Of a stretch of DNA of 32,139 nt, positions 1 through 31,193 are shown one piece after another (positions within the stretch are counted from its first letter, which is position 1; each line of letters opens with the position of its first letter). Below the pieces are notes generated by a model. It searched no databases and had not been told where the DNA came from. It saw nothing but the letters and a program-made list of their open reading frames with translations. The DNA is from Synergistota bacterium (lineage in GTDB: Bacteria; Synergistota; Synergistia; Synergistales; Aminobacteriaceae): contig JAKJGK010000013.1 of the NCBI GenBank assembly GCA_022704435.1, forward strand, positions 1 through 32,139, read 5' to 3'. Both the position numbers and the translations under genes were made by a program.

Positions 1-105
1 CGCAGAGGAGGGGTCATACCCGGTTCCATGCCGAACCCGGCAGTCAAGCCCTCCATCGCCGATGGTACTGCGGAGGCTATCCGTGGGAGAGCAGGTCGCC
101 GCCGG
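1..105 (+). rRNA. rrf: 5S ribosomal RNA, 3' part (5' end outside window)
   Basis: The first ~105 bases match the conserved 5S rRNA plan: the loop C region (GTTCCATGCCGAACCCGG), the following AGTCAAGCCCTCCATCGCC helix, GATGGTACTGC, and the closing GGGAGAGCAGGTCGCCGCC arm. About 10-15 bases of the 5' strand of helix I are missing, so the window starts inside the gene. A strong terminator-like hairpin follows about 20 bases later, so this is probably the last gene of an rRNA operon. The exact 3' end could be a few bases either side. Confidence 0.95.
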
Positions 106-125
106 AAATCCTGTTTGAAAGAAGA

Positions 126-26578: not shown

Positions 26579-26603
26579 CCGGAAGGCCTGGGAGGCGGCT
26601 AGA
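26574..26603. terminator. inverted repeat spanning both stop codons of convergent genes
   Basis: TCTAGCCG (26574-26581) and CGGCTAGA (26596-26603) are perfect 8-bp complements with a 14-base loop. The plus gene stops with TAG inside the left arm and the minus gene with TAG inside the right arm. There is no U-tract, so a termination role is only possible. Confidence 0.4.
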
Positions 26604-28251
26604 AGGACCGCTTGAATCCGGGCAGGTCCACCGGCAGCCGTCCCCTGGCGGGGGACACTCCCTTAAGGACTTCGCCGAGCGCCTGCAGCGATGGGGGGTT
26701 GTCGCTGTAGGCGATCGCGGCGGCCGCGACATCCGGCGTTGAGATGAGAGAGTAGGGCGTCCGCAGGGCGAGCAGTATCACCCGGTCGGGCCCTATCCTG
26801 CGGATCATCTCTAGCCACGCCGGGTTTCTCCAGCCGTCGTAGTCGGCGACGAGCACGTAGTCGAACCCCTCGGACCGTTTTAGGGCCTCCGCTATGTCGG
26901 CCTCCTCCGGTTTCCCCGGGAGAAGCGCCAGGTCGACGGGAAATAGGTTCCGGACAAGCCCCTCCGCGGCGGAGGCGCGTTCCGAGGGCCATAACAGCGG
27001 ACGAACCCTGCCGTCCCGCACGGAGGCAAGAGCACCGCGAATATCGCGCGCTACGGTTATGCTCTTCAGGGCGGCCTCGCGCGCGACCTCGGCTCCCTCG
27101 GCCGCCCTCGTCGGGGCGAACTCCGGCTTCCAGCCTTCATGGAGAAGCCCGAGTGAACACTTGGCTTCAAGGATCCTGCCGACGGCCTCGTCCAGACGCC
27201 AGGACGGTATTCTCCCCGTTCGACAGGCCTCGAGGAGTGCCGAATAAACGCCGAAGTGCTCTGTCTCTTCGTGCCCCTTGTCCGCCCCGAACAGCAGGAT
27301 GTCCGCGCCGGCGTTGAAAGCTGCTATCGCAGCGTCCTCGAGAGTTCTCCCCTCGGCGAGAGCCCCCATGCCCATGGAATCCGTGACGATGAGGCCGTTG
27401 AATCCCATTTCGTCCCGAAGAACGCCAAGGATGGCCGGGGACAGGGTGGCCGGGTTGGCCGGGTCGATCGAGGGGACGAGCACGTGCGCCGTCATGACGA
27501 TAGGCACCCCCGCCTCGACCGCCGCCCTGAAGGGGGGAAACTCGACCGAATCCAGCCGCTCCCTGGTAGCCTCGATCACCGGAAGCCCCGTGTGCGAGTC
27601 TACCGACGTGTCGCCGTGGCCCGGGAAGTGCTTCGCCGCGGGCAGAACGCCTTCGGCGAGACTGGCGCGTATCGTCTCGACCCCGAGCCGGGAGACGAGA
27701 GCGGGGTCGGACCCGAACGAGCGCACTCCTATGATCGGGTTCGACGGGTTGTTGTTGACGTCCATCACCGGCGCGAAATTGACGTTTATTCCGAGCGAGG
27801 CCAACTCCCTGCCCGATACAGAGGCCACTTTTGAGGCTAGGGCCGGGTCGTCGGCGGCGCCGAGCGCCATATTGCCGGGGAACTGGGTCACCCCTTCGCG
27901 AATGCGCGCGATCAGTCCGCCCTCCTGGTCGATCGCTATAAACAGGGGAAGAGTGCCGGTGGAGAGGGCCGTCCGCTGGATTTCAGCGTTCAGTTTCGCC
28001 ACTTGTTCCACGGACGCGATATTCTCCCTGCTCGAGTACAGGATCACCCCTCCCACCCTTAGCTCCGCCACGAATTTTTCCAGGTTTTCCGAGATTGCTC
28101 CCCCCTCGAAGAAGACGAGCATAATCTGCCCGACCTTCTCCTCCAGTGACATCTCGGACAATCTCCTTTCGGAGGCAAAACCGGGGTTACTGACCGCGGA
28201 GATGCAAATAGCAGTGCAAAGGACTGCGACAAGCCGCTTGACTGAACTCAT
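26599..28251 (-). CDS. nagZ: secreted glycoside hydrolase family 3 beta-N-acetylglucosaminidase (NagZ-like)
   Basis: 550 residues with signal peptide (MSSVKRLVAVLCTAICISAVSNPGFA). It probably removes beta-linked N-acetylglucosamine from muropeptides. The catalytic TIM barrel has IAIDQEGG (~106-112), NFAPVMDVN, KHFPGHGDT (207-215), the general acid/base dyad D218-S-H220 and the nucleophile D291 in VTDSMGMGA. A second alpha/beta domain (~400-550) makes it a two-domain enzyme like B. subtilis NagZ rather than the short cytoplasmic E. coli type. Export fits cell-wall recycling outside the membrane. Its ATG overlaps the stop of the upstream gene (ATGA), with GGAGGTG as ribosome binding site. Confidence 0.93.
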   Translation of the reverse strand: MSSVKRLVAVLCTAICISAVSNPGFASERRLSEMSLEEKVGQIMLVFFEGGAISENLEKFVAELRVGGVILYSSRENIASVEQVAKLNAEIQRTALSTGTLPLFIAIDQEGGLIARIREGVTQFPGNMALGAADDPALASKVASVSGRELASLGINVNFAPVMDVNNNPSNPIIGVRSFGSDPALVSRLGVETIRASLAEGVLPAAKHFPGHGDTSVDSHTGLPVIEATRERLDSVEFPPFRAAVEAGVPIVMTAHVLVPSIDPANPATLSPAILGVLRDEMGFNGLIVTDSMGMGALAEGRTLEDAAIAAFNAGADILLFGADKGHEETEHFGVYSALLEACRTGRIPSWRLDEAVGRILEAKCSLGLLHEGWKPEFAPTRAAEGAEVAREAALKSITVARDIRGALASVRDGRVRPLLWPSERASAAEGLVRNLFPVDLALLPGKPEEADIAEALKRSEGFDYVLVADYDGWRNPAWLEMIRRIGPDRVILLALRTPYSLISTPDVAAAAIAYSDNPPSLQALGEVLKGVSPARGRLPVDLPGFKRSF

Positions 28252-29378
28252 TCACTGACACCTCCAAGAGATGAGTAGAGCTTCTGCATAAACTGTTCGT
28301 ATGTCAAAGGGTAGTTTCCGCTGTAGTACATAAACCCGTACTGAATGTCGACGGAGAAGGGGAGGTCCCCTTTAAGCTCCAGCAGCTCCTCCGGAAGATC
28401 GACCAGTCTGAGCGAAGTCTCCTTGGCCCCCTGCTGCGGCGTCTCGGGCAACAATAGCAGGATCTCGCGATCGCCAAGGTAGAAGCCCATGTCGCTATCC
28501 CGAATCTCGGCTTTGACATACTGGGCGTAGGCCGAGAAAAAGGCCTCCTCCAAGTCCGGGCGCCTGCCCAAACCCGGAAAAGAGGTAAAGGTCACCTTCA
28601 GCAGAATGCCGCACAGCCAGCGGCGGTAGCGCCCTGCCCTGCCTAGCTCCTCAGGGACTCTTTTGGTCGAGTATTTCTTCGAGTAAAGACCCGTGTCGGC
28701 GTCCATCAGGTCAGGGTCGGGCCTTTGCGGCGGCGCGGGGGGGGCGGTGGACTTGGGGGGGTCTACCAGCAGAAAGTAGAAGAGCTCCCCGTTTGCCTTC
28801 TGAAAGACGCTCTGCCTTTTGCCTTTAATGGTCACCTCGTCTTCTCCCGGCGTGAAGAAGTCGGTGACGATCTTGCCCTCCGGCTCTTCCACGCCGACGA
28901 TCTCCTTGAAAGGGTCGTTGGCCATGAAGATTACGCCGTCATCGTCCGCGGCGGCCTGGGGAAAGGGGGAACTGTCCAGCGTGTCCAGTGCGCCGGCGGC
29001 CGGGGCGATCCTTGCCTCGTCGTGCGCCCCGCCGGATTTCCGCTCTCGCCTCTGTCCGAAGAAAAGATGTACTATCAGGGCGAAGCCGGACACCGCGATC
29101 GCCACGCCCGCCCATGGAGTGATGGGCGGCGCCCCGGCCTCAAGCGAGATTATGCAGATGATAATCCCCTGCGATGCCATCTGAAGGGGGAGGAGGTGAG
29201 ATGAAAGGCCGTTTTTAATGGAGAATGCGTACATCATCGTCAGGGCGGTGTAAAGGACTATCATGAGCAACCACAGCGGTGCACCTGCATGAATCCTGTG
29301 CGCGTCGCTCCCGAAGGCCGCGAGTGCGAGTGCGATTGGTAGAGAGACAAGTGGCGGGATTGTAAACCACACATACAT
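28248..29378 (-). CDS. four-helix membrane protein with degenerate GGDEF domain
   Basis: 376 residues. Residues 1-110 form about four membrane helices. After a basic stop (FFGQRRERKSG) and a flexible linker, ~140-205 resemble a PAS-like module (GVIFMANDPFKEIVGVEEPEGKIVTDFF). A proline-rich linker leads to ~220-370, which follows the GGDEF outline: MDADTGLYSKKYSTKRVPEELGRAGR, LLKVTFTSF, then SDMGFYLGDREILLLLPET. The GGDEF active site is replaced by YLGDRE and the FKxxND metal residues are absent, so cyclase activity is not expected. It may sense or bind nucleotides. GGAGGAATATAGG precedes the ATG; it is coupled to the nagZ-like gene. The assignment to GGDEF is my inference. Confidence 0.75.
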   Translation of the reverse strand: MYVWFTIPPLVSLPIALALAAFGSDAHRIHAGAPLWLLMIVLYTALTMMYAFSIKNGLSSHLLPLQMASQGIIICIISLEAGAPPITPWAGVAIAVSGFALIVHLFFGQRRERKSGGAHDEARIAPAAGALDTLDSSPFPQAAADDDGVIFMANDPFKEIVGVEEPEGKIVTDFFTPGEDEVTIKGKRQSVFQKANGELFYFLLVDPPKSTAPPAPPQRPDPDLMDADTGLYSKKYSTKRVPEELGRAGRYRRWLCGILLKVTFTSFPGLGRRPDLEEAFFSAYAQYVKAEIRDSDMGFYLGDREILLLLPETPQQGAKETSLRLVDLPEELLELKGDLPFSVDIQYGFMYYSGNYPLTYEQFMQKLYSSLGGVSE

Positions 29379-29446
29379 CCTATATTCCTCCAGGCGCTAT
29401 CCCTGAAACGCAAGCCTCTTTTCAGTTTTGTCCGGACAGATGTTGA

Positions 29447-29466
29447 TTCCCGTCCCGGGACGGGAA
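29447..29466. promoter_or_regulatory. perfect 20-bp palindrome in a divergent intergenic region
   Basis: TTCCCGTCCCGGGACGGGAA is completely self-complementary. A smaller perfect palindrome, TGTCCGGACA, lies at 29429-29438. Both sit in the 228-bp gap between the GGDEF-like gene (minus) and the YchF-family gene (plus). An operator for a dimeric regulator, or a hairpin in the minus transcript leader, would fit. No known regulator site is recognised. Confidence 0.5.
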
Positions 29467-29548
29467 ATACGGAACGATGATACCAGAAAAACGACCGGCT
29501 GTGGCAGTCCCTGTTCCGTTATGGGGAAGCCATTTCCGGAGCGGAGAG

Positions 29549-29554
29549 TATAAT
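29549..29554 (+). promoter_or_regulatory. -10 box upstream of the YchF-family gene
   Basis: A perfect TATAAT lies 53 bases upstream of the TTG start at 29607. No TG extension or good -35 accompanies it. Confidence 0.4.
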
Positions 29555-29606
29555 GACGTTGTTGGATTGCCCGATCTTCGATATGAAAGGGTAGGGAGGG
29601 TGCGAT

Positions 29607-30698
29607 TTGCTCAAGTGTGGAATAATAGGATTGCCGCTCTGCGGAAAGAGCACGGTGTTCAACGTGGCGACAAATGCGGGCGCCGAGGTCAAGCCTTATG
29701 CCGGTGGGAAGACAGATCCCAACAGGGCGATTGTCAGCGTGCCGGACAGTCGTTTCGACAGCTTGGCGCGTCTTTACGAGCCAAAAAAGACCACGCCCGC
29801 GACCGTGGAGTTCGTCGACCTTGCGGGCCTGTCTCGCAACGCAGGAAAGGGCGAGGGGCTCGGCAACTCGTTCCTTTCGTTCGTGGCGGAGTCCGACGCC
29901 CTGGTCCACGTGGTGCGACTGTTCGAGAACGCGGAAGTCCCGCACCCGGAGGATACGATAGACCCGGTCAGAGACTGGAACATCGTGGAGATGGAGCTGA
30001 TCTTCCGCGACCTGGGAGTCATCGAGGCGCGACTCTCGAGAATACTCGCCAAAAAAAAGACCGGCGCCGCCGAGGAGTGCGAGAAGGAACTCCTGGAGAG
30101 GTGCCAGGCCTGCCTGCTGGAGGAGCGCCCCCTGCGGGAGATGTCTCTGTCGGCCGAGGAGCTGCGCGTGCTGAGCGGGTTTTCGTTCGTGACGCTGAAG
30201 CCGGAGCTGCTGGTGGCGAACGTCGACGAGACGCAGACGGACGATGCCCTGCCATCATTCGCTGCATTGAAGGAGCTCGCCGGGGAAAAGGGGATACAGC
30301 TGATAAGGGTCTACGGCAGGATGGAGATGGAGCTCGCGGAGCTCTCCAGGGAGGAGCAGACCGAGTTCATGGACGAGCTCGGCCTGGTGGAGCCCGGGCG
30401 GAACCGACTAGTGTCCGGGGCATACGCCCTGCTCGGACTCATCTCGTTTTTTACGACAGGCAAGGACGAGGTAAAGGCGTGGACCCTGCTGAAGGGAAAG
30501 ACCGCCGTCGACGCCGCGGGGGCGATTCATTCCGACTTGGCGAGAGGGTTCATCAGGGCCCAGGTTGTCTCCTACGACGACTTCATGGCCAACGACCAGT
30601 CTCTGCCCAAGTGCCGGGAGAAGGGCGTGCTGAGACTCGAGGGAAAGGATTACATAGTGGCCGACGGGGATATGATTGAAATCCGCTTCAACGTATAG
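29607..30698 (+). CDS. YchF/Obg-family P-loop NTPase with C-terminal TGS (DUF933) domain
   Basis: 363 residues from TTG 29607, a few bases after GGGAGGGTG. YchF proteins are ribosome-associated ATPases of the Obg group. The P-loop is G8LPLCGKST16, where classical YchF has GLPNVGKST. The G3 region is D71LAGLSRNAGKGEGLGNSFL, and the base-specificity motif is N205VDE208, as in ATP-preferring YchF. A helical insert spans ~120-190, and the last ~85 residues form the TGS-like domain (AWTLLKGKTAVDAAGAIHSDLARGFIRAQVVSYDDFM). The altered P-loop suggests a YchF-like paralogue rather than the universal ychF, so no symbol is given. Confidence 0.9.
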   Translation: MLKCGIIGLPLCGKSTVFNVATNAGAEVKPYAGGKTDPNRAIVSVPDSRFDSLARLYEPKKTTPATVEFVDLAGLSRNAGKGEGLGNSFLSFVAESDALVHVVRLFENAEVPHPEDTIDPVRDWNIVEMELIFRDLGVIEARLSRILAKKKTGAAEECEKELLERCQACLLEERPLREMSLSAEELRVLSGFSFVTLKPELLVANVDETQTDDALPSFAALKELAGEKGIQLIRVYGRMEMELAELSREEQTEFMDELGLVEPGRNRLVSGAYALLGLISFFTTGKDEVKAWTLLKGKTAVDAAGAIHSDLARGFIRAQVVSYDDFMANDQSLPKCREKGVLRLEGKDYIVADGDMIEIRFNV

Positions 30699-30749: not shown

Positions 30750-31193
30750 ATGGCTATGCCTGTACAGATAGGCCTTGACGAAATTATCTCCATGCTGCTG
30801 GCCAGGGTTGACAGCCTGACGATCAACGACGAGAACTCAAAGAGCAGGTTCAACATCGTGGCTCGCGTGCTCTACAAGAAGGGCATCCTCACGGAGGAGG
30901 ATATAGTCGAGTCCATCAAGGACGAGCACAAGATGCTGAAGGAGCTGGGCGCCATACAGGAGGAGCCGTCGGATGAGCTTGTTCAGACAATCGCGGACGG
31001 CATCCTCCAGTGGATCAAAGGAGACGTGGCCTCCCTTAAAAAAGGAATGGAGGAGTACGAGCGGCGGTTGCAGGAGGCTATGGCCAAGCAACAGGCCCAG
31101 AAGCCCAGGATAGACGTGGCATCGCCCGCCGTGTTGCAGCAGTTGAACCGACTGGGCGGGAAGGGACAGGGCGGGGGCAAGTTAATTATTTAG
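30750..31193 (+). CDS. small helical protein of unknown function
   Basis: 147 residues from ATG 30750; AAAGGGG lies about 12 bases upstream, a rather long spacing, and an ATG two codons later is possible. There is no signal peptide. The first ~70 residues are amphipathic helices (LDEIISMLLARVDSLTINDENSKSRFNIVARVLYKKGILTEEDIVESIKDEHKML), with a segment resembling the YKKGILTEED helix-turn found in small regulatory or adaptor domains. About 85-115 may form a coiled coil (SLKKGMEEYERRLQEAMAKQQAQ). The C-terminus is Gly/Lys-rich. I do not recognise the family. It is probably cytoplasmic. Confidence 0.75.
   Translation: MAMPVQIGLDEIISMLLARVDSLTINDENSKSRFNIVARVLYKKGILTEEDIVESIKDEHKMLKELGAIQEEPSDELVQTIADGILQWIKGDVASLKKGMEEYERRLQEAMAKQQAQKPRIDVASPAVLQQLNRLGGKGQGGGKLII

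Follow-up and report, generated by a model that had tools for sequence, protein, structure and literature searches.

A membrane protein encoded in the Synergistota DNA analysed here is probably a membrane-anchored receptor of c-di-GMP and not a cyclase, as judged from its sequence and predicted structure. Its gene lies at positions 28248-29378 on the minus strand of the window (the whole stretch of 32,139 nucleotides that was analysed) and encodes 376 amino acids from an ATG start, which a GGAGG ribosome site precedes. The enzyme site of its GGDEF domain has been lost and the c-di-GMP pocket kept, and thus the protein probably receives c-di-GMP rather than making it. What the analysis shows is a predicted GGDEF fold, an active site (A-site) that is gone, an I-site retained phylum-wide, and a genome that also has GGDEF, EAL and PilZ genes.

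The protein belongs to a large family. At E<=1e-20 the family profile matched genomes of 30 among 62 Synergistota genera, 113 of the 185 genomes in all; in this count two genomes (G060 and G062) match over the GGDEF part only and may be non-members, and several others are represented by fragments. Thus, the open reading frame is neither a chance frame nor a decayed one. For residue counts we used 122 distinct members (130 sequences less 8 duplicate contig copies), leaving out a few fragments and second copies (for example G102, G107, G116, G145, G149, G151, G153 and G154) as well as the GGDEF-only matches G060 and G062.

Fold and active site of the GGDEF domain

The C-terminal domain (residues 222-370; 28269-28715, minus strand) was assigned to the GGDEF fold with AlphaFold2, Pfam, Foldseek and VIA-align. 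The AlphaFold2 model, built from the window protein aligned to 15 others encoded at loci that a peptide-pattern scan had found, reached a mean pLDDT of 79.6 overall and about 90 in the C-terminal domain; as the pTM was only 0.43, the relative placing of the domains is uncertain. Diguanylate cyclases were the Foldseek and VIA-align matches of this domain (VIA-align Z up to 18.2; rmsd 2.5-2.7 over 147-151 residues), and c-di-GMP-bound structures were among the top VIA-align rows. The GGDEF frame that a preliminary description had read in this domain is thus borne out, structure prediction and VIA-align both returning a GGDEF fold and no other. The Pfam GGDEF model gave 22.5 bits against a curated cut-off of 23.8, and a six-frame search of the genome gave 23.1 bits (25.4 with frame neighbours), marked as above the cut-off. 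Lying at this edge, the protein would probably be missed by routine annotation or called a diguanylate cyclase.

Ahead of this domain the model places a PAS-like alpha/beta part (residues 128-205; 28764-28997, minus strand), recognized with AlphaFold2 and Pfam, and four membrane helices joined by very short loops (residues 8-114; 29037-29357, minus strand), as the preliminary description had proposed. The helices span residues 8-21, 33-55, 59-81 and 86-114; by hydropathy three membrane segments are clear and helix 59-81 is not marked. Helix 1 carries a conserved PP and helix 3 a conserved QG, whose glycine (G71) is present in 122 of 122 members. PAS_8 scored 18.4 on the window protein against a cut-off of 21.8. 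When 24 family members were searched at E<=0.1, GGDEF matched in 20 and PAS_9 in 19, and the ten families listed included PAS-type models and no GAF.

The active site is degenerate throughout the family. In the window protein the sequence GDREI (residues 302-306; 28461-28475, minus strand) replaces the GG[DE]EF signature, the first metal-site position is K261, and position 304 is R304. The motif [GAS]G[DE]EF occurs in none of the 122 members, which rules out an active or near-active cyclase and upholds the earlier proposal that the active-site GGDEF and metal-binding residues are gone. The first metal position is D in 4 members and K or R in 98; an acid stands at the third signature position in 14, and acids at both metal positions in one. 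More than 29 of the 130 rows, counted before duplicates were removed, have no residue at that third position. By comparison, among 41 other GGDEF domains (13 from the window's genome and the 28 best-scoring from 20 genomes, a set that is not a random sample), 40 have D at the position of 261, 39 have G at 303 and 39 have D or E at 304. The basic swap at the first metal position could matter for the emptied pocket, and R304 is also basic in the window protein.

These counts bear on another reading, in which the old active-site pocket would retain residual enzyme activity or sense GTP or (p)ppGpp, with basic residues taking the place of magnesium. We take positions 269 and 278 to be equivalent to the guanine contacts, just as the metal-site positions are our assumed assignments, and only 3 of the 122 members have N at 269 and 10 have D at 278. 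This loss, together with the frequent absence of the third signature position, speaks against such a pocket. The basic residue that most members have at the first metal position would suit it, and precedents exist in the degenerate GGDEF domains of CC3396, which senses GTP, and YybT, an ATPase, as described in passages of PMC7288161. We consider this reading highly improbable.

Retention of the I-site and a model for c-di-GMP reception

The I-site has fared differently from the active site. In the window protein its RxxD motif is R293-D-S-D296 (28491-28502, minus strand). Across the 122 members R293 is invariant and D296 is present in 121, the sole exception reading RxxE, and in 121 the RxxD lies five residues ahead of the signature slot. 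Ranked by conservation, the columns of the domain are headed by these two positions and R250 (28629-28631, minus strand), which is also present in 122 of 122; the domain has a median pairwise identity of 24% among the members.

Excerpts from PMC7288161 describe the I-site of PleD as R359 and D362 of the RxxD, R390, and R313 contributed by an adjacent molecule. The window protein reproduces this arrangement, as residues 247-293-296-324 have the same spacings (46, 3 and 28) as 313-359-362-390 of PleD. R247 (28638-28640, minus strand) is thus the spacing equivalent of R313, the partner-domain arginine, and R324 (28407-28409, minus strand) that of R390. Of the 122 members, 105 have arginine at 247 and 17 lack it, and 118 have K or R at 324. 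All four I-site positions are kept jointly in 103 of 122 members versus 15 of the 41 background domains. In addition, when DgcR structures are aligned to the family profile, the RxxD columns fall on R and D in 6zxm and on A and A in 6zxb, which the Foldseek listing titles an I-site mutant of DgcR. R250 is not among the four PleD residues and may either have taken over as an I-site contact or play a structural part.

The RxxD was also found in 38 of the 41 background domains, and we therefore regard it as an inherited state. The informative point is the contrast: the RxxD is kept in 121 of 122 members, whereas all of them have lost the active site, which in the background is just as conserved. 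Selection is argued solely from this contrast, and family members are related by descent. At large, RxxD occurs in just 44-57% of GGDEF proteins according to excerpts of PMC3974145, so that the fold does not appear to need it.

The main rival of the receptor reading is retention of the RxxD for structural reasons, with the GGDEF fold serving as a ligand-free scaffold for dimerization or protein contact and the RxxD as a structural salt bridge. Structure could explain the retention, since two of the three background domains without an active signature also keep the RxxD (L041 and L043; L066 keeps the R only). R250, Y251, E244 and E312, none of them PleD I-site residues, are strongly kept as well, and passages of PMC3974145 describe the degenerate GGDEF of CdpA as acting without c-di-GMP. 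However, the limited occurrence of RxxD among GGDEF proteins and the retention in most members of basic residues at 324 and 247, at PleD spacing, argue against this rival, and we judge a scaffold to be unlikely. L066 resembles a different cyclase-type domain.

We therefore favour the receptor reading, in which c-di-GMP is probably bound at the I-site. The preliminary description had proposed that nucleotide binding or protein contact replaces catalysis; the idea of binding probably stands in a changed form, the kept site being the RxxD of the I-site, and the positions of the active-site pocket are lost. We infer the binding and its stoichiometry, the bridging of dimers, the membrane topology, the direction of control and the target in the model that follows. 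The four helices would anchor the receptor in the inner membrane, with the PAS-like part as the linker to a cytosolic GGDEF fold. The true cyclases of the cell would supply dimeric c-di-GMP, which would bind an I-site formed by R293, D296 and R/K324, with R247 supplied by a partner domain. Once bound, the ligand could form a bridge between two receptor domains and, in a manner close to that of PelD, turn the PAS and membrane part; an envelope protein in contact with the helices would change its activity as a result. This target may vary by lineage and could be found among the neighbouring NagZ, DUF4139 protein, LptF/G or phosphoesterase.

Family distribution and gene neighbourhoods

The setting in which such a receptor would work is present in the window's genome, which has 14 GGDEF matches (the receptor's own reading frame included), 2 EAL and 2 PilZ. 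Across 59 genomes (this one and 58 relatives), the 37 that carry the family have 3-43 GGDEF matches (median 12), a number to which the family protein itself can contribute, versus 0-11 (median 4) in the 22 that lack it (Mann-Whitney p about 1e-5, uncorrected for kinship or genome size). The two genomes with zero GGDEF matches (G036 and G054) are both without the family. A limited literature search found no paper on c-di-GMP receptors of Synergistota.

A contig scan with two peptide patterns, which is not exhaustive beyond Synergistota, returned 17 loci, 16 of them titled Synergistota and one Bipolaricaulota, the last matching in the GGDEF part only. Some genomes carry two or three copies of the family (G025, G026, G034, G039, G056 and several of group f4). 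In f4 genomes the score of the second copy is much lower, and this copy may represent a paralogous subfamily.

The gene lies directly upstream of a GH3/NagZ-like glycosidase gene (26599-28251, minus strand; 550 amino acids). The receptor's TGA stop overlaps the ATG start of this gene by the four bases ATGA (28248-28251, minus strand), and a GGAGG-type ribosome site for the glycosidase sits within the receptor's last codons. PF00933 matched the glycosidase with 307 bits and the motifs KHFPGHG..D.H and VTDS are present, while the NCBIfam equivalog PRK05337 scored 183 bits, below its cut-off of 207. The recycling enzyme NagZ is cytosolic. Unlike that enzyme, the glycosidase has an N terminus that reads by eye as a signal peptide.

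From this overlap the preliminary description had proposed a wall-recycling signal system, in which the receptor would control the secreted NagZ. The overlap is real and identical in 7 of 7 NagZ-adjacent loci (two genera), which fits translational coupling. Neighbours were counted in 40 loci of 35 genomes, in addition to the window, by tblastn searches that used single queries and a threshold of 1e-6; as several loci are cut by contig ends, all such counts are lower bounds. NagZ is directly downstream in 6 of these 40 loci (7 of 41 when the window is counted), and these loci come from two genera only. Neighbourhood conservation with nagZ, which had been suggested as a check, is exceeded by that of DUF4139, phosphoesterase and LptF/G genes. 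Additionally, a NagZ match at E<=1e-20 is present in 22 and absent in 15 of the 37 genomes that carry the family, many of these assemblies being incomplete; the congener G003 has no NagZ next to the receptor and no match anywhere in its genome. The GGDEF domain is also expected in the cytosol, whereas this NagZ is apparently exported. A general partnership with NagZ is therefore rejected, wall recycling is not supported, and control of the downstream glycosidase by the receptor seems quite improbable. The NagZ link is a local, lineage-specific feature of two genera.

Other neighbours are more frequent. The gene of a secreted-looking DUF4139 protein immediately precedes the receptor gene, in the same orientation, in 15 of 40 loci, and it lies no more than 2.6 kb away, to either side, in 20; Pfam made the assignment for one representative, and the others were assigned by their similarity. 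A calcineurin-like phosphoesterase, whose N terminus looks membrane-bound, is found downstream in 9 of 40 loci (10 within 1.3 kb). LptF/LptG genes come next in 7 of the 40, and some of these loci also have LpxI or LpxB beyond them. This placing of LptF/LptG behind the receptor recurs in several genera (L111, L112, L114, L118, L121, L122 and L132), suggesting an envelope or LPS context.

YchF is divergent within 2.5 kb in 12 of 40 loci. In the window, the ychF gene for the YchF GTPase (29607-30698, plus strand) is separated from the receptor gene by a divergent intergenic region (29379-29606). A secreted-looking DUF4139 gene occupies the site between receptor and ychF in 3 of 4 sampled congeners and in three g3 genomes (L094-L096 and L098-L100), and is absent there in the window's genome and in congener G003. 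With the L094 protein as tblastn query, the window gave chance matches only (best E 0.34), and a DUF4139 remnant is therefore rejected; the genome's one DUF4139 match lies on another contig, where the L094 protein also gave chance matches only (best E 1.4). No relevant paper on DUF4139 emerged from the literature search.

Beyond ychF, the window encodes a 147-amino-acid protein (D147; 30750-31193, plus strand) that is also found beyond ychF in many relatives and has no Pfam match above the cut-off. A c-di-GMP riboswitch near the receptor gene was considered and rejected, as Rfam at gathering cut-offs returned only 5S rRNA in the whole window. The 5S rRNA gene lies at 1-107 (plus strand), its 5' end cut by the contig start.

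We treat envelope biogenesis as a lead to the receptor's role. It is conceivable, if rather doubtful, that a Synergistota-wide membrane receptor links c-di-GMP to envelope assembly, and not to an exopolysaccharide synthase, with partners swapped between lineages. The same tentative reading would cover LPS export via LptF/G, the lipid A genes, the DUF4139 protein and the periplasmic glycosidase.

Comparison with known c-di-GMP receptors

The best-supported placement, by analogy, is that the Synergistota proteins form a new family of the receptor kind known from PelD and PssE, and would likewise bind c-di-GMP. In both of these, c-di-GMP is bound via the RxxD of an inactive GGDEF domain, as passages of PMC7112168, PMC4125290 and PMC8461298 describe. 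In PelD (excerpts of PMC8461298), a GAF domain and a degenerate GGDEF domain accompany four membrane helices predicted at the N terminus, and the GGDEF domain binds dimeric c-di-GMP through the RxxD and a further arginine; in the Bacillus cereus protein, alanine variants of these three residues gave no detectable binding (excerpts of PMC7112168). The likeness to PelD of Pseudomonas aeruginosa and B. cereus thus extends to the four N-terminal helices, the small cytosolic sensor-type domain, and the inactive GGDEF with its RxxD and further arginine (passages of PMC8461298 and PMC7112168).

The two differ in the sensor domain, which is GAF in PelD and PAS-like in the Synergistota receptor. PelD_GGDEF (PF16963) had no match above the cut-off in the 59 genomes and none at E<=1 in the window's genome, with sub-threshold matches in two family members (G010:C245, E 0.14; G025:C4, E 0.07). 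An orthologue of PelD is ruled out by these domain matches, and Pel genes were absent from the window's open reading frames and from the ten neighbour representatives scanned. We therefore describe the receptor as PelD-like in its probable working and do not file it as PelD.

PssE of Listeria monocytogenes is likewise a c-di-GMP receptor with an inactive GGDEF and an RxxD five residues before the signature slot, according to excerpts of PMC4125290. It differs in its setting, since PssE belongs to an exopolysaccharide synthesis cluster, whereas the Synergistota receptor lies beside DUF4139, LptF/G, phosphoesterase or NagZ genes. The active I-site cyclases PleD, WspR and DgcR share the fold (Z 17-18) and the I-site residues at PleD spacing, but the Synergistota family has lost GG[DE]EF and the metal-site acids. 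If c-di-GMP is bound, these proteins would represent a receptor family across 113 of 185 Synergistota genomes (two of them over the GGDEF part only). The family offers a clean natural case of an I-site that has outlived the active site, and may help to separate the two roles of the GGDEF fold.
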